A DNA stretch of 64,000 nucleotides. Origin: Nocardioides lacusdianchii (GTDB taxonomy: Bacteria; Actinomycetota; Actinomycetes; Propionibacteriales; Nocardioidaceae). The stretch spans positions 372,001 to 436,000 of the forward strand of contig NZ_JADHZD010000001.1 in assembly GCF_020102855.1 (NCBI RefSeq), given 5' to 3'. The notes under the pieces are model-generated. The model made no database searches, was not told the DNA's origin, and saw only the letters and a list, made by a program, of their open reading frames with translations. Below, one piece after another: positions 28,479-43,418 of this stretch (positions within the stretch are counted from its first letter, which is position 1; every line of letters begins with the position of its first letter). A program made the translations under genes and the position numbers.

Positions 28479-29492
28479 TCAGAGGCTGATCAGCACCTTG
28501 CCCACCGCGCCGTCCTCGACGGCCGCGTGCGCCTCGGCGGTCCGCTCGAGCGGGTAGTGGTGCAGCGGCAGGCCGTGCTCGTCGCCGACGCCGTACGCCC
28601 CGTCGGCGACCGCGGCGCTGACGTCCTCCGCCGCCGCACGCAGCGCTTCCTGGCCCACGGTGTAGAGCAGCACCCACTGGAAGCGTGCGTTGGTGGAGAA
28701 GGTCTCGCGCACGCTGAGCGTCACCTCGTCGCCGCCGTTGTTGGCGTAGATCGCGATCGTGGCGCGCGGCCTGATCACGCCGAGGTCGAGGCGGAGGTTC
28801 TGCGCCGGAGCCACCTCGACGACGAGGTCGACGCCCTCGGGCGCGAGGTCGCGGATCGCCGCGGCGGTGTCGCCGTCGCGGTAGTTCACGACGTGCTGCG
28901 CCCCCGCGGCCCGCGCGAGGGCCGCCTTCTCGTCGCTGCTCACCGTGCTGATCACGGTCGCACCGGCCCAGCGAGCGAGCTGGATCGCGGCGTTGCCGAC
29001 CGCGCCGGCGCCACCCGCGACGAGCACCGTCGTCCCGGCCAGCGCGCCGGGGGCGAGCCGGTCCGGTCCGTCCTCGGAGGTGGTGAGGGCCCGGTGCGCG
29101 GTGACCGCGGGCACGCCGAGCGAGGCGCCCAGGTCGTACGACGCCGCGTCGGGCAGCTTCTCCACGTTGGCCACCGGGAGGACCACGAGCTCCTGCGCCG
29201 TGCCGCCCGGGCGGGTGTGCTGGGCGAGCATCGTCCAGACCCGGTCGCCGACCGCGAGGTCGGTGACGCCGGGGCCGACGGCGTCGACGTCGCCGGCGCC
29301 GTCCTGGCCGGGGACGATCTCGGGGAAGGCGAGCTCGCCCATGCCCCCTGCGCGGAACTTCCAGTCGGTCGGGTTCACGCCGGCGCGGACGATCCGCACC
29401 CGCACCTCACCCGGTCCGGGCTCCGGCGCCTCGCGCTCGACCAGCTCCAGCACGGAGGAGTCGCCGCTCTCGGTGTAGACCACTGCACGCAT
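28479..29492 (-). CDS. NADPH:quinone reductase-like zinc-type dehydrogenase
   Basis: This 337-residue medium-chain dehydrogenase has the quinone reductase layout: an N-terminal GroES-like domain without the structural zinc cysteines, and a Rossmann motif in VLVAGGAGAVGNAAIQLA. It should reduce a quinone or enone with NADPH. The ATG at 29492 is preceded by GAGGAAGG. It is the last gene on the minus strand of the catabolic island, 58 bases after the thiolase gene. A role in that pathway is possible but not proven. Confidence 0.88.
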   Translation of the reverse strand: MRAVVYTESGDSSVLELVEREAPEPGPGEVRVRIVRAGVNPTDWKFRAGGMGELAFPEIVPGQDGAGDVDAVGPGVTDLAVGDRVWTMLAQHTRPGGTAQELVVLPVANVEKLPDAASYDLGASLGVPAVTAHRALTTSEDGPDRLAPGALAGTTVLVAGGAGAVGNAAIQLARWAGATVISTVSSDEKAALARAAGAQHVVNYRDGDTAAAIRDLAPEGVDLVVEVAPAQNLRLDLGVIRPRATIAIYANNGGDEVTLSVRETFSTNARFQWVLLYTVGQEALRAAAEDVSAAVADGAYGVGDEHGLPLHHYPLERTAEAHAAVEDGAVGKVLISL

Positions 29493-29550
29493 CAGGTGTC
29501 CTTCCTCGGGGGATCGTCGTTCGAGGAGCCCAACACCGGCGGGCGCCGGA

Positions 29551-30825: not shown

Positions 30826-31809
30826 TCAGGGCACCAGCACCTGGCGTACGCCGGACCCGCCGGCCTGCTGCGCGCGCCAGACCTCCTCGACGTCGGCGAG
30901 CGGGCGTGCCTCGTGGGCGACCCCGACGAGCCCGTCGGCAGCGAGCCGCGCGACGGCGCCCAGCGCCTCGGCCCGCTGGTCCGCGGTGAGCGCGTTGTTG
31001 GTGTAGCCCAGGAGCGACAGCCCGCGGCCGCGCAGGCCGGCGGAGGAGAGGGTGGCGGCGTCGGAGGCAGACCCGCCCAGGTTGACGAGCCGTCCACCCG
31101 GAGCCATCGCCGGCAGCGCAGCCTCGGCCACCCAGCCGAAGACCGGGTCGATGACGACGTCCGCGCCGTCCGGGAGCGCGTCGCGGAGCGCCTCCGTGAG
31201 GCCCGCCGGGTCGGGCTCACCGATCTCGACCACTGCGTTTGGGCCCTGTGCCCGCGCCCGGCCGGCCGAGCCGCCCGACCTGCACACCGCGACGACCCGT
31301 CCCGCCCCCTGGGCCCGGGCCGCGCCGATCGCCGCCTGCCCGACGGCGCCGCCGGCACCCAGCACCACGACGGACTCGCCGGGACGCAGCCCGGCCCGCC
31401 AGGCCAGGGACTGCCACGCGGCGACACCGGAGAGCCCCAGCGCAGCGAGGGCGACGTCGTCGACGTCGGCCTCCTCCCGCGGCAGGGCCACGACGGCGGA
31501 CGCCGGCACGACGCACAGCTCGGCCAGCGCCCCGTCACCGTCGGCCATCCCGGCCGAGGTGGCGACGAAGACCCGCGTCCCGGGCGGCAGGTCCCCGCCG
31601 GACACCACCTCGCCCACGCCCTGCACGCCCGGCACGTAGGGCAGCGCCCGGGCGCCGAAGTAGGAGGTGCCGCTGGCGCACAGCAGGTCGAGCGGCACGA
31701 CCGGGGCGGCCGTCACGCGCACCAGCACCTCCCCCTCGCCCGCCACCTGGTCCGCGTGGTCGGCGTACGCCGGCGCGGATCCGTGTGCGTGCAGCACCGC
31801 GGCGCGCAT
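30826..31809 (-). CDS. Zinc-type alcohol dehydrogenase/quinone reductase-like protein
   Basis: This 327-residue medium-chain dehydrogenase has an N-terminal GroES-like domain and a Rossmann motif VVVLGAGGAVGQAAIGAARA. Zinc ligands are not clearly present. Its ATG overlaps the LigA-like gene (ATGA), placing it firmly in the CoA-transferase/lyase/dioxygenase operon. A ring-cleavage product such as a semialdehyde would be a logical substrate, but this is inference from position. Confidence 0.85.
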   Translation of the reverse strand: MRAAVLHAHGSAPAYADHADQVAGEGEVLVRVTAAPVVPLDLLCASGTSYFGARALPYVPGVQGVGEVVSGGDLPPGTRVFVATSAGMADGDGALAELCVVPASAVVALPREEADVDDVALAALGLSGVAAWQSLAWRAGLRPGESVVVLGAGGAVGQAAIGAARAQGAGRVVAVCRSGGSAGRARAQGPNAVVEIGEPDPAGLTEALRDALPDGADVVIDPVFGWVAEAALPAMAPGGRLVNLGGSASDAATLSSAGLRGRGLSLLGYTNNALTADQRAEALGAVARLAADGLVGVAHEARPLADVEEVWRAQQAGGSGVRQVLVP

Positions 31810-32168
31810 CAGGTGGAGATGTCGGGATAGGGCAGCGAGAGGTGTTGCATCGCCGCCCCGTAGGCCAGCTGGTACTCCATCGGTCCGTGGTCGCGCTCGA
31901 ACATCGCGATGAAGAGGGTGAGCGTCAGGAACGGGTGGGCGCCGAGCTCGAAGAGCCGCACGTGGTCGTGCGACGCGAGCGCCTCGCGCTCGTCGTCGTC
32001 GAAGGCCAGCCAGGTGGAGCGCTCGTCGGAGATGGCGTTGAGGAGCCGGTTGGCCTCCTCCGCCTCCCACCACGCGACCGTGCCGCGCGGGTCCTCGCGG
32101 TAGCGCTCGACCAACTCCGGGTCGCGGTCGACGGTGAACAGGAACTTGTCCAGCAGGTACTTGCTCAC
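31809..32168 (-). CDS. Extradiol dioxygenase alpha subunit, LigA-like
   Basis: This 119-residue protein resembles the small alpha subunit of protocatechuate 4,5-dioxygenase (LigA). In those enzymes LigA covers the active site of LigB and takes part in binding the aromatic ring. The GTG at 32168 overlaps the stop of the LigB-like gene (GTGA), as expected for a two-subunit enzyme made together. It has no metal-binding motif of its own. The substrate may be protocatechuate, gallate or a related catechol. Confidence 0.82.
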   Translation of the reverse strand: MSKYLLDKFLFTVDRDPELVERYREDPRGTVAWWEAEEANRLLNAISDERSTWLAFDDDEREALASHDHVRLFELGAHPFLTLTLFIAMFERDHGPMEYQLAYGAAMQHLSLPYPDIST

Positions 32169-33043
32169 GGTGTGACTCCGATCTGGGGCGCCCCGTTCGG
32201 GTACCAGGTGAAGTAGGCCTCCATCGTGTGGAAGAGGTCGAGCGAGTCGACGTGGTGCGCCTTCGCGCCCTCGCCGGCGACGCCCATCATCAGCATGAAG
32301 TCCATGAAGCCGTGGGTCGCGTTGCCCGGCAGGTGGAGGCTGTCGAGGGTGACCTCGCGGCAGCAGCCGTCGATGTCGCCGTTGGCGATCCACTCCACCG
32401 CGCGCCGGTCGAACTCCGGGTCCGGCCCGTGCTCGCCGAACTGGCGCGGGCCACCGAGCTCGAGGGAGAGGTGACCGGTGCCGATGATCGCCACGCGCTG
32501 GTCCGAGGGCCACGACTCCACCAGCTCGCGGATCGCCTTGCCCAGCGCGACGAACCGCTCGGGACGCGGCAGCGGCGGGGCGAAGATGTTGGTGTAGATC
32601 GGCACGATCGGAAGGTCGGCCTGGGGACGCAGCGTGATGATCGGGCAGGTGATGCTGTGGTCGATGCGCAGCTCGTTGCTGAAGGCGAGGTCGAAGCCCA
32701 GGTCGAGGCCGCCGCGCAGCACGTGCGCAGACAGGTCCTCCTGGCCGGCGAGCGTCATCTTCGGCAGGCCGAACTCGCGCTCCTCGTTGTACCAGTTGGC
32801 GTCGTAGAAGGGCGCCTTGCCGACGAGGAACTGGGGCATGTTGTCCAGCCACAGCTGGTGGAAGTGGTCGCTGCCCACCATCACCAGGACGTCGGGACGG
32901 GCGCGGGTCAGCGTCTCGCGGAAGGCCTCGATCTTGCGGACCCACTCGTCGGCGAAGGGCGGCCGGTCCTCGCCGACCGCCGTGCTCGCGCGGTAGTAGA
33001 AGGGGTGGTGCGTCGAGGCGATGACAGCGACGATCTCGGCCAT
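32165..33043 (-). CDS. Class III extradiol ring-cleavage dioxygenase beta subunit, LigB-like
   Basis: This 292-residue protein is the iron-bearing subunit of a LigB-type dioxygenase. His12-His13 in STHHPF and His60 in GSDHFH match the iron ligands of the class III family, and GTGHLS carries the catalytic His region. The enzyme opens a catecholic ring beside a hydroxyl group with O2. It is coupled to the alpha subunit and lies 11 bases after the citrate-synthase-like gene. The CoA-linked neighbours suggest a product that is activated with CoA; the exact catechol cannot be told. Confidence 0.88.
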   Translation of the reverse strand: MAEIVAVIASTHHPFYYRASTAVGEDRPPFADEWVRKIEAFRETLTRARPDVLVMVGSDHFHQLWLDNMPQFLVGKAPFYDANWYNEEREFGLPKMTLAGQEDLSAHVLRGGLDLGFDLAFSNELRIDHSITCPIITLRPQADLPIVPIYTNIFAPPLPRPERFVALGKAIRELVESWPSDQRVAIIGTGHLSLELGGPRQFGEHGPDPEFDRRAVEWIANGDIDGCCREVTLDSLHLPGNATHGFMDFMLMMGVAGEGAKAHHVDSLDLFHTMEAYFTWYPNGAPQIGVTP

Positions 33044-33054
33044 GGCAGCGGTCC

Positions 33055-33849
33055 TCAGCTCTTCTCGGTCGGGTCGACGTAGACCGCGTTGCGGTCGATG
33101 CTCAGGTAGGCGTCCATGCCGATCGGCCGGCGCTGCTCCTCCGCGATCTGGCCGAGCAGCCCCGCCGCACGCGCCAGCAGCGCGAAGCCGCGGAGCATCT
33201 CCACCGGCAGGCCGAGGTCGGCCAGCGCGGCGCCGCAGACGCCGGCGCCGTTGAGCGGCAGCGTGCGACCCAGCACCTCGGGGTGCGCCCGGCCGACTGC
33301 GGCGAAGAGCCGGAGGTGCGGACCGAGCAGGCCTTCCTCCTCCGCGATGCGCATCAGCACGGGCGTGCGCGGGTCCTGCTCCTTGTGGACCGGGTGGCCC
33401 AGGCCGGGGACGAAGCGCCCGGACTCCTTCGTGCGGCGTACGGCGTCGAGGGCGAGCGCGTCGTAGCCCGCGTCGTCGGTGGGCAGGTCGCCGTCCGCGG
33501 CGACGACCACGTCGTGGAGCCAGCCGCCGCAGTCCTCGGTCACGCCGAGGAAGCGTGAGCCGCCGCCAAGGAGCCCGGCGGCCAGCGCACCCTGGAGGGA
33601 GTCGGGGGCCGAGAGGTAGGTCAGCCGCGCCGCGATGGCGGTCGGGGTGAAGCCGTGGTCGGCGAGCGCGACGAGCACGGCCTCGAAGAGGCGCGTCTCC
33701 GAGGGCGTGGGCCGGCGCATCGCGACCAGCCAGAAGGCGAGCTCACCGAACCCGACCTCGCCCATGAGGTCGGCGGTGAGGTCCTGGCCGAGCAGCCGGA
33801 TCTCGTCGGCCGTGGAGGTGCCGAGGGAGGTGGGGTACTCAGGTGTCAC
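33055..33849 (-). CDS. Citryl-CoA lyase-like protein (citrate-synthase fold)
   Basis: This 264-residue protein is a short citrate-synthase-fold protein annotated in related genomes as citryl-CoA lyase. His65 in ADHGF and His152 in GLGHPVHKEQDPR match catalytic histidines of citrate synthase. Proteins of this size act on CoA esters by retro-aldol (Claisen) cleavage, for example giving acetyl-CoA and a keto acid. It overlaps the CoA-transferase (ATGA). Together they could activate and cleave an open-chain tricarboxylic ring-fission product. Function is inferred from fold and neighbours. Confidence 0.8.
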   Translation of the reverse strand: MTPEYPTSLGTSTADEIRLLGQDLTADLMGEVGFGELAFWLVAMRRPTPSETRLFEAVLVALADHGFTPTAIAARLTYLSAPDSLQGALAAGLLGGGSRFLGVTEDCGGWLHDVVVAADGDLPTDDAGYDALALDAVRRTKESGRFVPGLGHPVHKEQDPRTPVLMRIAEEEGLLGPHLRLFAAVGRAHPEVLGRTLPLNGAGVCGAALADLGLPVEMLRGFALLARAAGLLGQIAEEQRRPIGMDAYLSIDRNAVYVDPTEKS

Positions 33850-35015
33850 GGGGTCTCCTCGTTGAGCCAGGCACGGATCTCGTCACCGTGCTCGTCGAGC
33901 GCCGGCGGCGGTCGGTCGTAGCGGGCCTCGGCGTCGGAGAAGCGGATCGGGTGGCGTACGCCCGGGAGCGCGGCGTCGCCGCTGCCGACCGTCACGACCG
34001 GGTCGAGGCCGATCTTCTCGGCGAAGGCGACGCCTCCGTCGACGGTGTTGATCGGCCCGCACGGCACACCGGCGCCGATGATGTCCTCGAACCACTCCTG
34101 CGCGGTGCGGGTGGCGAGCCGCTCGACGAGCAGCGGGCGCAGCTCGTCGCGGTTGGCGGTGCGGTCCTCGTTGCGGGCGAAGCGCGGGTCGTCGGCGAGC
34201 TCGGGGACGCCGAGCACCTCGGTCAGCTTGCGGAACTGCCCGTTGTTGCCGGCAGTGACGATGAGGTCGCGGTCGGAGCAGGGCAGCGGCTCGTAGGGGA
34301 ACAGGCTGGGGTGGGAGTTGCCCATCCTGAACGGCACGGTGCCGCCGGCGACGTAGGCACTGGACTGGTTGACCAGCCCCGACAGCGCCGAGGAGAGCAG
34401 GTTGACCTCGACGTGCTGCCCGCGGCCGGTGCGGTGCCGGTCCTGCAGCGCCGAGAGCACGCCGATCGTCGCGTGGAGGCCGGCCAGGACGTCGAAGACG
34501 GAGATGCCTGCGCGGAAGGGCTGCCCGTCGGGGTCGCCGGTGAGGCTCATCAACCCACTGATGGCCTGGACGATCAGGTCGTAGCCGGGCAGCTTCGCGC
34601 CCTGCTCGCCGCTGCCGAAGCCGCTGATCGAGGCGTAGACCACGCCCGGGTTGGTCGCCGAGACGGTGGCGTAGTCGAGGCCGAACCGCTCCAGCGCACC
34701 GGGCTTGAAGTTCTCCAGCACGATGTCGGCGCGGGCGACCAGCTTGCGGGCGACCTCGAGGTCCGCAGCGTCCTTGAAGTCCAGCGCGATCGAGCGCTTG
34801 TTGCGGTTGACCCCGAGGAAGTAGGTCGACACCCCGTCACGCACGGGCGGCTGCCACGACCGGGTGTCGTCGCCCTGCGGTCCCTCGACCTTCACCACCT
34901 CCGCGCCGAGGTCGCCCATCAGCATCGTGGCGTAGGGCCCGGCCAGGATCCGGGACAGGTCCGCGACGAGCAGACCGTCGAGTGGGCCGTGCTTCGACTC
35001 TGGTGCGTCGCTCAC
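33846..35015 (-). CDS. CaiB/BaiF type III CoA-transferase
   Basis: This 389-residue protein belongs to the family III CoA-transferases. The catalytic Asp146 lies in PGYDLIVQ, the position of Asp169 of formyl-CoA transferase. It moves CoA from a donor such as succinyl-CoA or acetyl-CoA to a carboxylic acid. I chose the GTG at 35015 because GGAGG lies 5 bases before it. It is first in the minus-strand operon and read from the divergent promoter region. The acceptor is probably an acid made by the dioxygenase, by context. Confidence 0.9.
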   Translation of the reverse strand: MSDAPESKHGPLDGLLVADLSRILAGPYATMLMGDLGAEVVKVEGPQGDDTRSWQPPVRDGVSTYFLGVNRNKRSIALDFKDAADLEVARKLVARADIVLENFKPGALERFGLDYATVSATNPGVVYASISGFGSGEQGAKLPGYDLIVQAISGLMSLTGDPDGQPFRAGISVFDVLAGLHATIGVLSALQDRHRTGRGQHVEVNLLSSALSGLVNQSSAYVAGGTVPFRMGNSHPSLFPYEPLPCSDRDLIVTAGNNGQFRKLTEVLGVPELADDPRFARNEDRTANRDELRPLLVERLATRTAQEWFEDIIGAGVPCGPINTVDGGVAFAEKIGLDPVVTVGSGDAALPGVRHPIRFSDAEARYDRPPPALDEHGDEIRAWLNEETP

Positions 35016-35107: not shown

Positions 35108-35156
35108 TCCGCCGGACCTCGGGATCACAGTGATGTGCACCACAACGACCGTCATA

Positions 35157-35170
35157 CGGACACACGTCCG
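35157..35170. promoter_or_regulatory. Palindromic operator (site 2) of the divergent region
   Basis: CGGACACACGTCCG matches site 1 (CGGACATGTGTCCG) except near the centre. It lies 19 bases before the amidohydrolase ATG. Two similar palindromes on either side of the divergent promoters suggest one regulator controls both directions. Confidence 0.5.
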
Positions 35171-35189
35171 AGAACAGGAGCGGGTCGAC

Positions 35190-36672
35190 ATGCCCCCCAC
35201 CCCCGACCGCCGGCCGGTGCTCTTCACCGGTGGCACCGTGCTCACCATGGACGACCAGCACACCGTGCTGTCCGACGCCGACTTGCTCGTCGTCGACGAC
35301 CGGATCGCCGAGGTGGGACGCGGCCTGTCCGCCCCCGACGGCGCGGAGGTCATCGACGCCAGCGGCGGCATCGTGATGCCGGGCATGATCGACACCCACC
35401 GCCACATGTGGCAGACCGCGATGCGGGCCTACGGCGCCGACTGGACCCTCACGCAGTACTTCGTCTGGTACTACCTCGAGCACGGCGCGAAGTTCCGCCC
35501 CGAGGACGTCCGCGCCGGCAACCTGCTCTCGGCCTGGGACGCGCTCGAGGCGGGGGTCACCACCACCGTCGACTGGTCGCACGGCCTCCAGACCGTCGAC
35601 CACGCGGAGGCGGCCGTCGACGCGCTGCGCGCGGTGCCGGGCCGCTTCGTCCTGGCCTACGGCAACATCCAGGCGGCCCCGTGGGAGTGGACGGCCGACC
35701 CCGCGGTCCGGTCCTTCTTCGACCGCAACCGCGGCTCCGACGGCGACATGCTCGGCTTCCAGCTCGCCTTCGACGTCACCGGCGACCCGGCCTTCCCCGA
35801 GAAGGCGGCCTTCGAGCTCGCCCGCGACCTCGGCCTCCCCGTCACCACCCACGCCGGGGTGTGGGGCGCGACCAACGACGACGGCATCCGGCTGATGCAC
35901 GAGCACGGCTTCATGCAGCCCGACACCGTCTACGTCCACGCCGCGACGCTGACCACCGACAGCTACCACCGCATCGCCGCCACCGGCGGGTCCATCTCGG
36001 TGTCGACGGAGTCCGAGCAGAGCGCGGGCCAGGGCTACCCCGACCTGGCAGGTGCGCCGTCACGACATCCCCGTCTCGCTGTCGATGGACACCTCGGTGT
36101 GGTGGAGCAGCGACCTGTTCAGCGCCATGCGCACCACGCTCGGCGCAGACCGCTCGCGCGAGCACCTCGAGGCGCACGCGGCGGGCGACACCGTCACCCA
36201 CTCGCACCTGCGCGCCGAGCAGGTCGTCGACTGGGCGACCCGCGGTGGTGCCCGCGCGCTGGGCCGCGACGACCTCGGCCACCTCACCGCCGGCGCGAAG
36301 GCTGACGTGGTGCTCATCAAGAACGACGACTCCCCCGTGTCCTTCCCGCTGCTGAACCCCTACGGCCACGTGGCCTTCCAGGCCCAGCGCGGGGACGTGC
36401 ACACGGTCGTCGTCGACGGTCGCGTCGTGAAGCGCGACCACCGACTGGTCGGCGCGGACCTGGCGTCCGTGCGCACCGACGTCGCGAACACCGTCGACCA
36501 CCTCCGCTCGTCGATGGGCGAGGAGGTCTGGCAGCAGGGCATGAACCCCGACCTGCCCGGCGGCGACGACGACAAGGTGCTCGACAACCCTTACCAGTAC
36601 ACCGACTACCGCTCCGACACCACGCACGGCGCACGCGGTACGGTCTTCGGCGAGCCGAACTCGGGGAGGTAG
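35190..36672 (+). pseudogene. Amidohydrolase family gene with a frameshift
   Basis: The two frames together encode about 494 residues of an amidohydrolase of the chlorohydrolase/deaminase type. The metal site begins at His70-x-His72 (DTHRHMW), with a third His in THAGVWG. Reading in the first frame is normal to about codon 285 (near 36045), then turns to non-family sequence and stops at 36305. The second frame resumes with WQVRRHDIPVSLSMDTS and runs to 36672. One extra base, or two missing bases, between 36035 and 36050 explains it. The catalytic Asp lies after the break. AGGAG is 9 bases before the ATG. It could be a pseudogene or a sequence error. Confidence 0.82.
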
Positions 36673-36675
36673 CCC

Positions 36676-37488
36676 ATGGCCGGTCGAGGCAGCGGGCCCG
36701 ACTTCGTGGAGTCGCTGGCCCGCGGGCTCGACGTGCTGGCCGGCTTCGGCCCCCAGCGGCCGTCGATGACGCTCTCGGAGGTGGCGACCGCCACCGGTCT
36801 GGCGCGTCCGACGGCGCGCCGGCTGCTGCTGACCCTCGAGGAGCTCGGCTACGTCCGCTCGCGCGACGGCGCCTTCACGCTGACGCCGCGGGTGATCGGA
36901 CTCGGGATGGCGTACGTCGGCTCGCTGGGACTCTGGGACGTCGCCCGCCCGCACATGGAGGAGCTCGTCGCGCGGATCGGGGAGTCGGTGTCGCTGGCGC
37001 AGCTCGACGGCTCCGACATCGTCTACACCGCCCGGGTGTCGGTGCCGAAGATCATCGCGTTGCGCGTGGAGATCGGCACCCTCTTCCCCGCCGCCCAGAC
37101 GTCCAAGGGCAAGGTGCTGCTCGCCGCGCTGCCGCCCCGGAAGGTCGCCGACGTGCTCGAGGTCCCGAGCCGCGCCGGCCTGGCGCCGTACGCCGGGCGC
37201 AGCGTCGAGGAGCTGATGGACGAGCTCAGCCAGGTGCGGGCCCGCGGGTGGGCACTGGCCGACGAGGAGCTGGCCCCCGGGGTCCGGTCGATCGCCGTCC
37301 CGGTGCGCGACGGTCAGGGCGAGGTGCACGCGGCCATGAGCGTCACCGTGCACGCCGCCGAGACGTCGCGCGAGACGCTGGTCGACGACCACCTCCCGCA
37401 GCTCGTCCGCGCCGCCAGCGAGGTCAGCGCCGACTGGGCGCTGTGGCAGTCACGCCCGCACACCGAGGTCGCAGCAGCGCTCAGCTGA
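36676..37488 (+). CDS. IclR family transcriptional regulator (PcaR/PobR-like)
   Basis: This 270-residue protein has an N-terminal winged helix ([23 protein letters not shown]) and a C-terminal IclR effector domain. Members such as PcaR, PcaU and PobR respond to aromatic acids and control their catabolism. It starts 3 bases after the amidohydrolase and is probably co-transcribed with it. It is the obvious candidate to bind the palindromes at 35034-35170. The effector is unknown. Confidence 0.92.
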
Positions 37489-40512: not shown

Positions 40513-40565
40513 GACACGACCGTACGAGTTCAGGTGTACTTCAGCACCAGCGGTCGTGGCACACC

Positions 40566-41150
40566 TCACCCCACGAGGACGACGTGGAGCGTCCGCGGAC
40601 CGTGGACTCCCTCGACGCGATCGAGCTCGATGTCGCTGGTCGCCGACGGACCGCTGATCCAGGTGAGCGGTCGCGCCGGGTCGAGCAGGGCGATCGCGTC
40701 GGGCACGTCGGCGACGACCTGGCCGCCGTCGACGACGCACACGTGCAGGTCGGGCACCAGGGTGATCGCACGCCGGCCCTGGTCGGGCTGGTGGTCGAGC
40801 ACGACGGTGCCGGTCTCGGCGATCCCGACGGCCGCACGGGTCACCACGGCGTCGTACGCGTCGAGCTCGGTGGCGGTGAAGACGTCGTCGACCACGGCGC
40901 CGGGAAGGTCGAGTCCGAGGTCCGGTGGCACGACCGCGCGGGCGGACCCGAGCACGTCGCGGACCACCTGGTCGACCTCGTCCGGAGCGCAGCGGGTGAC
41001 CACGGCGCGGTAGTCCTCGACGCGCTCGACGAAGAGCGCGACCAGGTCGCCGCGGTCGGGCACTCGCGGCGCGGCCGGGACCTCGACGGCCGGGGAGACA
41101 CCGGCCAGCGCCTGGCGCACCCCTCGCAGGATGTCGTCGCGCGCGCTCAT
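40566..41150 (-). CDS. lutC: Lactate utilization protein C (LUD domain)
   Basis: This 194-residue LUD-domain protein is the LutC/YkgG member of the LutABC L-lactate oxidation complex. The region GIAETGTVVLD is characteristic. LutABC converts L-lactate to pyruvate in the cytoplasm. The ATG overlaps the end of lutB (ATGA), and the order lutA-lutB-lutC is the usual one. No lactate permease gene is seen here. Confidence 0.9.
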   Translation of the reverse strand: MSARDDILRGVRQALAGVSPAVEVPAAPRVPDRGDLVALFVERVEDYRAVVTRCAPDEVDQVVRDVLGSARAVVPPDLGLDLPGAVVDDVFTATELDAYDAVVTRAAVGIAETGTVVLDHQPDQGRRAITLVPDLHVCVVDGGQVVADVPDAIALLDPARPLTWISGPSATSDIELDRVEGVHGPRTLHVVLVG

Positions 41151-42637
41151 CGAGCTCCCCCGTCGCGTCCGCCGTCGGTGCGGTCCCACCAGTCGCGGAA
41201 CGACTCCTCCGGAGGCGCGGGCAGGTCGCGCGCACCGGTCCAGCCCGCGGCCGGACCGGGCAGTCGGCCCGCTGCGGCACGGCCGCCGGGGAGCGTCGTA
41301 CGACCGAAGCGGCGCAGGAGACGGCCGCCCAGGCCCGACGCCTTCTCGGCCCACGCCAGCCGGCGCGAGTCGGAGAACGCCCACGCAGCCGCCTTCATGG
41401 CGACGGCCTCGGCCTTGGGCACTCGGTCGCCGCGGTGCGAGTCGACGACGGCGGCGCGCTGGTCGACCAGCACGGACGGGATGTCGATGCGCACCGGGCA
41501 GACCTCGAAGCACGCCCCGCACAGCGAGGAGGCGTACGGCAGCGACGCGGTCTGCTCGTCGGAGACGCCGTGGAGCAGCGGGTTGAGGATCGCGCCGATC
41601 GGGCCGGGGTAGACCGAGCCGTAGGCGTGGCCGCCGACGCGCTCGTAGACCGGGCACACGTTGAGGCACGCCGAGCAGCGGATGCAGCGCAGCGCCTGGC
41701 GGCCGACGTCGTCGGCCAGCGCACGGGTGCGGCCGTTGTCGAGCAGCACGACGTGCACCTCCTGCGGGCCGTCCCCGGGCGTCACGCCGGACCAGGTCGA
41801 GGTGTAGGGGTTCATCCGCTCGCCCGTCGAGGACCGCGGCAGCAGCCGCAGCAGCGGGTCGAGGTCGGCCCAGGTCGCGACGACCTTCTCGATGCCGACG
41901 ACACTGATCAGCACCTCGGGCAGCGTCAGGCACATCCGCCCGTTGCCCTCGGACTCGACCACCACGAGGGTGCCGGTCTCGGCGACCGCGAAGTTGGCGC
42001 CGGACACGGCGACCTTCGCGCGCAGGAACTTCTCGCGCAGGTGCGCGCGGGCGGCGGCGGCCAGGACCGCCGGCTCGTCGGTCAGGTCCACCGGGGCGGG
42101 ACGGCCCACGTCGCCCATGCGGCGCAGGAAGATCTCACGGATCTCGGCGCGGTTGCGGTGGATCGCCGGCACCAGGATGTGCGACGGCAGGTCGTCGCCG
42201 AGCTGCACGATGAGCTCGGCCAGGTCGGTCTCCCACGCGGCGATGCCCTCGGCTTCGAGCGCCTCGTTGAGGCCGATCTCGGCGGTGGCCATCGACTTCA
42301 CCTTGACCACCTCGTCGACGCCGTGGGCCTTCGTCACCTGCGCGACGATCGCGCACGCCTCCTCGGCGTCGCGCGCCCAGTGGACGGTCGCGCCGGCGCG
42401 GACCAAGGACGCCTCGAGCGTCTCCAGGTGGGTGGCGAGGTCGCGCAGCGCGGCCTCCTTCACCCCGGCCCCAGCGAGCCGCAGCTCCTCCCAGTCCTCA
42501 ACCTCGGCCACGACCTTCGCCCGCTTGTCACGGATCACGTGGGTGGCGTGGGCCAAGTTGCGGCGCAGCTGGGTGTCGCCGAGCGCCTCGCGCGCGGCGG
42601 TGGGGAAGGCCGGCATCCCGACGAACGTCCCGCTCAT
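41147..42637 (-). CDS. lutB: Lactate utilization iron-sulfur protein B
   Basis: This 496-residue protein joins an N-terminal LUD domain to a ferredoxin-like [4Fe-4S] domain with CIRCSACLNVCP and CGACFEVCP, then a C-terminal tail. It is the LutB subunit and carries electrons away from L-lactate oxidation. Start ATG at 42637 overlaps the stop of lutA (ATGA). Length matches LutB (about 470-500). Confidence 0.93.
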   Translation of the reverse strand: MSGTFVGMPAFPTAAREALGDTQLRRNLAHATHVIRDKRAKVVAEVEDWEELRLAGAGVKEAALRDLATHLETLEASLVRAGATVHWARDAEEACAIVAQVTKAHGVDEVVKVKSMATAEIGLNEALEAEGIAAWETDLAELIVQLGDDLPSHILVPAIHRNRAEIREIFLRRMGDVGRPAPVDLTDEPAVLAAAARAHLREKFLRAKVAVSGANFAVAETGTLVVVESEGNGRMCLTLPEVLISVVGIEKVVATWADLDPLLRLLPRSSTGERMNPYTSTWSGVTPGDGPQEVHVVLLDNGRTRALADDVGRQALRCIRCSACLNVCPVYERVGGHAYGSVYPGPIGAILNPLLHGVSDEQTASLPYASSLCGACFEVCPVRIDIPSVLVDQRAAVVDSHRGDRVPKAEAVAMKAAAWAFSDSRRLAWAEKASGLGGRLLRRFGRTTLPGGRAAAGRLPGPAAGWTGARDLPAPPEESFRDWWDRTDGGRDGGAR

Positions 42638-43374
42638 CCCTCGTCCTCCTCGGTCGAGGCCAGCACCTCGGCCAGGTGCATGACCCGCACACCCGCGCGC
42701 TGGCGCGACAGCATCCCCCCGACGTGCATCAGGCACGAGTTGTCGCCCGCGACCAGCACCTCGGCGCCGGTGTCGCGCACGTGGCGCGCCTTGTCGGCGC
42801 CCATCGCGATCGAGGCGTCCGCGTTCTTCAGCGCGAAGGTGCCCCCGAAGCCGCAGCACTCCGTCGCGTGCGGCAGGTCGACCAGCTCGATCCCGCGCAC
42901 CGCCTCCAGCAACCGCGTCGGCCGGTCACCGACCCCGAGCATCCGCAAGCTGTGGCACGTCGGGTGGTAGGTCGTCCGGTGCGGGAAGTAGGCCCCCACG
43001 TCGGTCACGCCCAGCACGTCGACGAGGAACTCGGACAGCTCGTACGTCCGCGGCCCGGTCTCCGCGACCGCGGCGGCCAGCGCCGGGTCACCCGAGCGCT
43101 CGGCCACGATCGAGTGCTGGTGGCGCGCCGATCCCGCGCACGACCCCGACGGCGTCACGATGGCGTCGTAGCCGGCGAACGCGTCCACGAAGCGGCGTAC
43201 GACCGGGACGGCCTCGTCGAGGTAGCCGGTGTTCACCATCGGCTGCCCGCAGCACGTCTGCTCCCGTGGGAAGTCGACCTCGACGCCGAGACGGCGCAGC
43301 AGCCTCACGACGGCCTTCCCCGTGTCGGGGAACATGGCGTCGTTGACGCAGGTGATCTGGAGGGCGATTCTCAC
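42634..43374 (-). CDS. lutA: Lactate utilization protein A (CCG-domain Fe-S oxidoreductase)
   Basis: This 246-residue protein has the two cysteine-rich CCG motifs (TCCGQP and ECCGFGG) of the LutA/GlcF/HdrB family that bind an unusual iron-sulfur cluster. It is the first gene of lutABC. I chose the GTG at 43374, with AGGA 9 bases before it; a GTG at 43392 is another option. It is divergent from the GtrA gene across about 44 bases. Confidence 0.93.
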   Translation of the reverse strand: MRIALQITCVNDAMFPDTGKAVVRLLRRLGVEVDFPREQTCCGQPMVNTGYLDEAVPVVRRFVDAFAGYDAIVTPSGSCAGSARHQHSIVAERSGDPALAAAVAETGPRTYELSEFLVDVLGVTDVGAYFPHRTTYHPTCHSLRMLGVGDRPTRLLEAVRGIELVDLPHATECCGFGGTFALKNADASIAMGADKARHVRDTGAEVLVAGDNSCLMHVGGMLSRQRAGVRVMHLAEVLASTEEDEG

Positions 43375-43418
43375 GCCTCGGCATCCTGCCACGGACGCGT
43401 GCCGAGTAGCCTCGCGCC

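Follow-up and report, generated by a model that had tools for sequence, protein, structure and literature searches.

A conserved unit of CoA-transferase, citrate-synthase-fold and LigB-LigA genes in Nocardioides lacusdianchii suggests a CoA-dependent lower pathway after aromatic ring opening

What becomes of a ring-opened acid when the genes of the ring-opening enzyme share an operon with those of a coenzyme A (CoA) transferase and a citrate-synthase-fold protein? This question is raised by an operon of Nocardioides lacusdianchii in the 64,000-nt stretch analysed here (contig NZ_JADHZD010000001.1, positions 372,001 to 436,000; hereafter the window, within which all coordinates are given). Five genes follow one another on the minus strand, encoding a CaiB-type (family III) CoA-transferase (33846..35015; 389 aa, GTG start), a citrate-synthase-fold protein annotated as citryl-CoA lyase and called CCL below (33055..33849; 264 aa; PF00285, 69.8 bits), a LigB-type class III dioxygenase subunit with an altered active site (32165..33043; 292 aa; PF02900, 94.8 bits), a LigA-type small subunit (31809..32168; 119 aa; the pair is referred to as LigBA) and an accessory MDR/QOR-type dehydrogenase (hereafter MDR; 30826..31809; 327 aa; PF00107, PF08240). 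The positions given in the initial annotation are correct, and family scans agree with its names for CaiB, CCL, LigB and MDR. It had also described 4-base overlaps and 11-base spacing: the overlaps are found at the CaiB/CCL and LigB/LigA junctions and the gap between CCL and LigB, whereas LigA and MDR share 1 base and not 4. The full unit is larger than first described, since an IclR-family regulator of the PcaR/PcaU/PobR type (36676..37488, plus strand; TIGR02431, 265.2 bits, narrowly missing the cut-off of 284.75) and an ATZ/TRZ-type, PRK08204-like amidohydrolase (35130..36672, plus strand; NF006056; in two frames) are divergent from CaiB-CCL-LigB-LigA(-MDR). The best model for this unit, towards which we lean on the strength of the sequence comparisons, is a dedicated CoA-dependent lower pathway that acts after ring opening.

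A LigB profile scan of named genomes returned 518 confirmed relatives, and the best 80 of these 518 loci, a set leaning towards close relatives, were studied. LigA is present in all 80 of them, CaiB and CCL in 79 each, the amidohydrolase in 76, the IclR gene in 75 and MDR in 66, so that the amidohydrolase and the regulator are steadier neighbours than MDR; given the numbers for LigA, CaiB and CCL, the gene set is not a chance association. The single LigB locus devoid of CaiB and CCL lies on a contig that begins at LigB, and all loci in which CaiB, CCL, the amidohydrolase or the IclR gene is missing are on short or truncated contigs (L069, L079, L101, L130, L137). CaiB, CCL and LigB are contiguous on the same strand in 78 of 79 loci, the exception (L062) having its CCL match in two pieces. 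A second sample, of 394 genomes drawn around the window's own class, was scored with LigB counted at ≥65% identity (thereby excluding 10 of 35 genomes that had only 33-40% matches) and with E-value cut-offs of 1e-60 for CCL and 1e-75 for the intradiol dioxygenase discussed below. Of these genomes, 25 have a LigB ortholog, 44 have CCL and nine have the intradiol ortholog, and in 23 of the 25 LigB genomes CCL lies no more than 5 kb from LigB. The initial annotation had proposed conserved co-occurrence as a check; it is seen for CaiB, CCL, LigB and LigA, and often MDR, in the 80 loci, and for CCL with LigB in the genome sample. Related sets extend to Alphaproteobacteria (LigB identity ∼65%) and to plasmids. 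Eleven plasmid records have a LigB above 60% identity; regions were fetched for nine of them (all but H5 and H9), and eight were read, H1 being unannotated and unscanned. CaiB and CCL accompany LigB in six of the eight (L033, L034 from Rhodococcus, L035, L036, L143, and L144, where CaiB is broken).

The most informative variation within the unit concerns the ring-opening enzyme itself. Three loci (L050, L054 and L156) have an intradiol dioxygenase where LigBA would be expected; the proteins from L050 and L156 score above cut-off for both PF00775 and PF04444, and the closest solved structures are hydroxyquinol dioxygenases (8r2x, 3n9t, 1tmx). Within the 394-genome sample, CCL is found within 5 kb of the intradiol gene in seven of nine genomes, in no genome are both ring-opening enzymes near CCL, and no LigB ortholog was found in the seven genomes with an intradiol enzyme near CCL. 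The exchange can be followed between two rhodococci, Rhodococcus sp. NBC_00297 (L034) with LigB-LigA and R. opacus G13 (L156) with the intradiol enzyme, whose remaining proteins are closely similar (IclR 79, flavin adenine dinucleotide (FAD) monooxygenase 85, alpha/beta hydrolase 81, amidohydrolase 89, CaiB 88 and CCL 82% identity). A LeuD is also common to them (61% identity); it stands alone, no LeuC having been found in either locus. In a midpoint-rooted FastTree phylogeny of CaiB from 35 chosen loci (several nodes being weak), L034 and L156 are sisters (support 0.998), and L050 and L054, which have the intradiol enzyme, cluster with the LigBA locus L052 (0.992). As intradiol enzymes are also present in the Betaproteobacteria L145 and L175, parsimony suggests at least three switches of the ring-opening enzyme. 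That clusters otherwise alike employ two unrelated enzymes for ring opening points to the same ring being opened; as intradiol cleavage produces two carboxylates, a diacid is the expected product.

As regards the substrate, the regiochemistry, the CoA donor, the cleavage step and every individual reaction, we infer what follows from the genes, their families and conservation, the enzyme exchange and the altered residues that are seen in sequence. The model places a CoA-dependent route where a LigK-type aldolase would otherwise be expected, because CaiB and CCL are conserved with the ring-opening enzyme and a search of this genome (E 0.001) gave no match to the LigK family (TIGR02798), a family model that matched the control genomes only below its cut-off. 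LigB-LigA would open a hydroxylated aromatic ring to a dicarboxylic acid, the CaiB-type transferase would move CoA onto it, and CCL would break a C-C bond of the resulting ester, yielding acetyl-CoA together with a smaller acid that would enter the tricarboxylic acid cycle; together the latter two would replace a free-acid aldolase (LigK type) or a reductase plus thiolase. Upstream, the amidohydrolase would prepare the ring, for example by hydrolysing off an amino or an alkoxy substituent. The IclR protein, being of PcaR type, would regulate the unit, and MDR would serve as an accessory reductase. The initial annotation had proposed a pathway of this general kind: its association of transferase and CCL with the ring-opening enzyme stands, while the thiolase that it added does not belong to the set (see below).

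Replacement of LigBA by the intradiol enzyme makes it probable that ring opening creates two new carboxylates. A diacid fits CaiB, as the named families closest to it use dicarboxylates: the best NCBIfam match is succinate-glutarate CoA-transferase (362 bits, under the cut-off of 750). Its assignment to family III rests on PF02515 (393.1 bits) and on D175, present in 103 of 103 relatives, which by its motif would correspond to the catalytic Asp169 of formyl-CoA transferase. LigAB-type enzymes are not known to form a diacid from rings other than vicinal triols, of which gallate is one. Candidate rings are hydroxyquinol and the vicinal triols, among them gallate, pyrogallol and 1,2,3,5-tetrahydroxybenzene. 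Hydroxyquinol would give maleylacetate, and 1,2,3,5-tetrahydroxybenzene would give 2,4-dioxoadipate, the CoA ester of which could split to acetyl-CoA and oxaloacetate. Two modes of cleavage were considered, namely hydration (LeuCD being present in L145, L150, L174 and L149) followed by retro-aldol cleavage of a citramalyl- or citryl-like CoA ester, and a direct retro-Claisen cleavage of a 3-oxo acyl-CoA.

That CCL acts on a CoA ester is supported by its surroundings elsewhere, as its relatives adjoin CoA-forming enzymes (CaiB with LeuCD, or an AMP-binding ligase). Of the 44 CCL genomes in the sample, 14 have neither LigB nor the intradiol gene within 5 kb, one of which (G288) carries LigB on another contig. 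Six of the other 13 contexts were read (L178-L183): an AMP-binding ligase is directly upstream of CCL in four (L178, L179, L180, L182), with neither CaiB nor ring-opening genes; none was seen in L181, and L183 is too short to judge. Another CCL relative next to an AMP-binding ligase is found in L150.

Compared with the known pathways, the unit shares with the LigK-ended protocatechuate/gallate routes (LigC-I-J-K, GalD) the opening of the ring by a LigAB-type enzyme, but the acid is presumably processed as a CoA ester. With the hydroxyquinol pathway (hydroxyquinol 1,2-dioxygenase, maleylacetate reductase, beta-ketoadipate) it shares, in some clusters, a hydroxyquinol-dioxygenase-like enzyme in the place of LigBA; it differs in having CaiB and CCL, and a search of the 80 loci with one iron-containing alcohol dehydrogenase probe (Fe-ADH; PF00465, the maleylacetate reductase family) gave no match beside LigB. 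Elsewhere this genome holds two Fe-ADH proteins above cut-off, and the family is present in G000, G035 and G064; no PF00775 (intradiol) match was found in the N. lacusdianchii genome. The beta-ketoadipate pathway (PcaIJ, PcaF) likewise puts CoA on a ring-derived diacid and releases acetyl-CoA, both of which would apply here, but the present unit has a family III transferase in place of PcaIJ and a citrate-synthase fold in place of the thiolase.

A number of observations weigh against this model, and the first group concerns the active sites. The predicted LigB structure matches the class III extradiol fold (Z 23.8 against DesB, 22.6 against LigAB and about 13 against MEMO1; model confidence (pLDDT) 68, with low regions around 59-97, 123-132 and 194-205). 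In canonical LigB the iron is held by a 2-His-1-Glu set (His12, His61, Glu242), with a catalytic His195 in an L-S-H motif. The window LigB shares with LigAB and DesB His12, His60 and the His of the DH motif (His129), which are retained in 109 of 109 relatives above 60% identity. On the other hand, the canonical Glu column (as in L139 and L140) is Gly245, adjoining a position 244 that is His in 108 of 108 readable relatives. The DODA-type sequence of this genome, its one further LigB-family protein, aligns its Glu to column 244, so that either His or Gly can be taken as the replacement. In the column of the catalytic His, all 109 relatives have Leu (Leu194), with an invariant His191 three residues ahead. 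LigB thus lacks both the Glu ligand and the catalytic His, and may not be an ordinary dioxygenase, which weakens the case for the ordinary LigAB chemistry of the initial annotation. The gene order also differs, being A-B in the canonical loci (L139, L140) and B-A here. A 36% relative of LigB in Rhizobium rhizogenes K84 (L038), in a different gene setting, has neither Glu nor His at the ligand position and appears to represent a second odd subfamily. For LigA, neither Pfam nor NCBIfam gave a match at E 0.001; its identity would follow from its position, from hhalign to two canonical LigA sequences (probability 39%, E 3e-4, 42 columns) and from its predicted fold (pLDDT 75), which matches the C-terminal part of DesB (316-408) with Z 8.8 over 89 aligned residues (root-mean-square deviation 4.5), the best unrelated row of the search having Z 2.8.

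A similar situation is observed for CCL. It scores well above the cut-off of the citryl-CoA lyase subfamily (NF004868, 277.8 bits, cut-off 193), matches the citryl-CoA lyase 6hxp with E 1.7e-23, and shares the fold family and the G-x-G-H and D-P-R motifs with citryl-CoA lyase and the C-terminal domain of ACLY. However, the catalytic Asp (Asp375 in citrate synthase), which 6hxp and the ACLY chains have in N-V-D-G, is replaced by Ala202 within N-G-A-G in 104 of 104 close relatives, and other relatives have N-[VIA]-[ST]-[GSA]; Ala, Ser or Thr occupies this column in 12 of 12 aligned CCL relatives regardless of genomic setting. The lyase predicted initially is therefore upheld in fold and family score but weakened as to its chemistry. 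Owing to these altered active sites, "LigAB-like dioxygenase" and "citryl-CoA lyase" are statements on fold only, and the chemistry of both enzymes may be new or may rely on other residues. A specific version of the CoA-dependent model, which we regard as tentative and rather doubtful as a whole, would have LigBA, with an all-His metal site (His12, His60, His244), cut a ring of the hydroxyquinol or tetrahydroxybenzene type to yield a diacid, in the role of an Fe(III) intradiol enzyme; CaiB would activate the diacid and the Asp-less CCL would split it by retro-Claisen cleavage, with no need for a maleylacetate reductase or a thiolase.

The second group of contrary observations concerns gene distribution. 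Both ring-opening enzymes share one operon in L100 and L101, with the intradiol gene directly 3′ of MDR, so that one does not necessarily exclude the other. In G412, LigBA lies at CCL and an intradiol gene elsewhere; G465 has LigB without CCL, and G466 an intradiol gene without CCL. Two Rhizobium plasmid regions (L037, L142) carry LigB-LigA but no CaiB-CCL; cytochrome P450, peroxidase and sensor-kinase genes are found nearby. Conversely, CaiB-CCL occurs with LeuCD and without a ring-opening gene in L149 and L174, and in Niveispirillum cyanobacteriorum (L176) it adjoins what resembles a full protocatechuate 4,5-cleavage set, CaiB, CCL and IclR standing beside LigB, LigJ-, LigK- and GalD-like genes. 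The sub-cut-off LigK scores of the control genomes belong on the same side.

Four other explanations were weighed. One, which we find unlikely, is that LigBA is a true extradiol enzyme releasing a semialdehyde, which MDR or another dehydrogenase oxidises to the same diacid that the intradiol enzyme makes in one step, with CaiB and CCL acting thereafter. The frequent presence of MDR beside LigBA would fit, as would its lack of a match in the intradiol clusters L050, L054, L156, L184 and L185. But LigBA clusters devoid of MDR do exist, among them L034 and the rhizobial ones, and 12 of the 14 MDR-less loci of the 80 span 9.8 to 20.9 kb. In addition, MDR/QOR enzymes are not known as aldehyde dehydrogenases, and when one ring is cleaved in the extradiol or in the intradiol mode the resulting skeletons normally differ.

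It seems equally improbable that CaiB-CCL serves to process small diacids, unsaturated or hydroxylated, of the citramalate/mesaconate type, LigBA being a non-dioxygenase metalloenzyme that shares the fold. The altered LigB site would be in line with this, and so would L149 and L174, where CaiB-CCL and LeuCD are accompanied by transporters. It is countered by the bona fide intradiol family member (PF00775 and PF04444 over cut-off) that occupies the same place in seven of the 394 genomes, and by the far better fit of the LigB model to DesB than to MEMO1.

Less probable still is a beta-ketoadipate-like ending, in which MDR reduces the acid, CaiB makes 3-oxoadipyl-CoA, a PcaF-like thiolase finishes and CCL has some other role. 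A thiolase gene (P0006, 30750-29551) does lie beside the operon, its product resembling 3-oxoadipyl-CoA thiolase (423.8 bits, cut-off 605), and the regulator is PcaR-like. Yet a thiolase-like match was obtained in just two of the 80 loci, each time at the distal end of the region, and none in the close relatives L059-L061, whereas CCL is retained wherever the operon occurs. Thiolase and CoA-transferase are thus neighbours in the window only, the thiolase is there by chance, and the later role once suggested for it can be dropped. It was rejected as a pathway member for want of conservation, together with a second QOR gene (28479-29513), whose 35-39% matches in most of 12 loci overlap MDR itself, a true copy (86%) being found only in L061. 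An ordinary protocatechuate/gallate 4,5-cleavage pathway with LigJ and LigK encoded elsewhere is very improbable despite the fold match of LigB to DesB and LigAB and a single protein elsewhere in the genome that matches PF04909, the family model used for LigJ and LigI (C5:33892, 105.8 bits), given the negative TIGR02798 search, the loss of the LigB/DesB catalytic residues and a conserved operon that holds no lig genes.

With respect to the amidohydrolase, the window frame is broken by a run of C two bases shorter than in the sister genomes L059, L060 and L061, where the gene is a single open frame; pseudogene and sequencing error cannot be told apart here. An intact relative (L050) reaches the PRK08204 family score (393.7 bits, cut-off 391). 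Related amidohydrolases also occur in L152 and L155 with FAD monooxygenase, alpha/beta hydrolase, FAA-hydrolase-family and VOC proteins, apparently in another aromatic pathway. A naringenin/isoflavone-type route (PMC11069340, PMC8552027) was considered as an upstream pathway; the resemblance is confined to these FAD monooxygenase and VOC clusters. A MetE-type methyltransferase relative is found in or near the cluster in five of the 80 loci (L072, L089, L100, L130, L133; 60-72%) and in Aminobacter (L033; PF01717, 115 bits; annotated as uroporphyrinogen decarboxylase family), and may hint at a methylated substrate. LutABC-like lactate-utilisation genes lie further along the window (40541-43392); they were considered as linked genes and set aside, LutB and LutA matches occurring near the operon in two of the 80 loci (L100, L101).

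No paper describing this gene set was found in a literature search of open-access PubMed Central (PMC) articles, and passages of PMC8879955 contain nothing on its genes. The set is widespread, judging by LigB in 25 of the 394 sampled genomes, yet it has been annotated gene by gene only. If the CoA-dependent model is true, it would add a third ending for aerobic ring cleavage, in which CoA activation after ring opening and C-C cleavage by a citrate-synthase fold take the place of an aldolase or of a reductase and thiolase. The swap of an extradiol for an intradiol fold in matching clusters offers a direct way towards the substrate, and also a means of investigating how the active site of a class III enzyme functions when the Glu ligand is missing.

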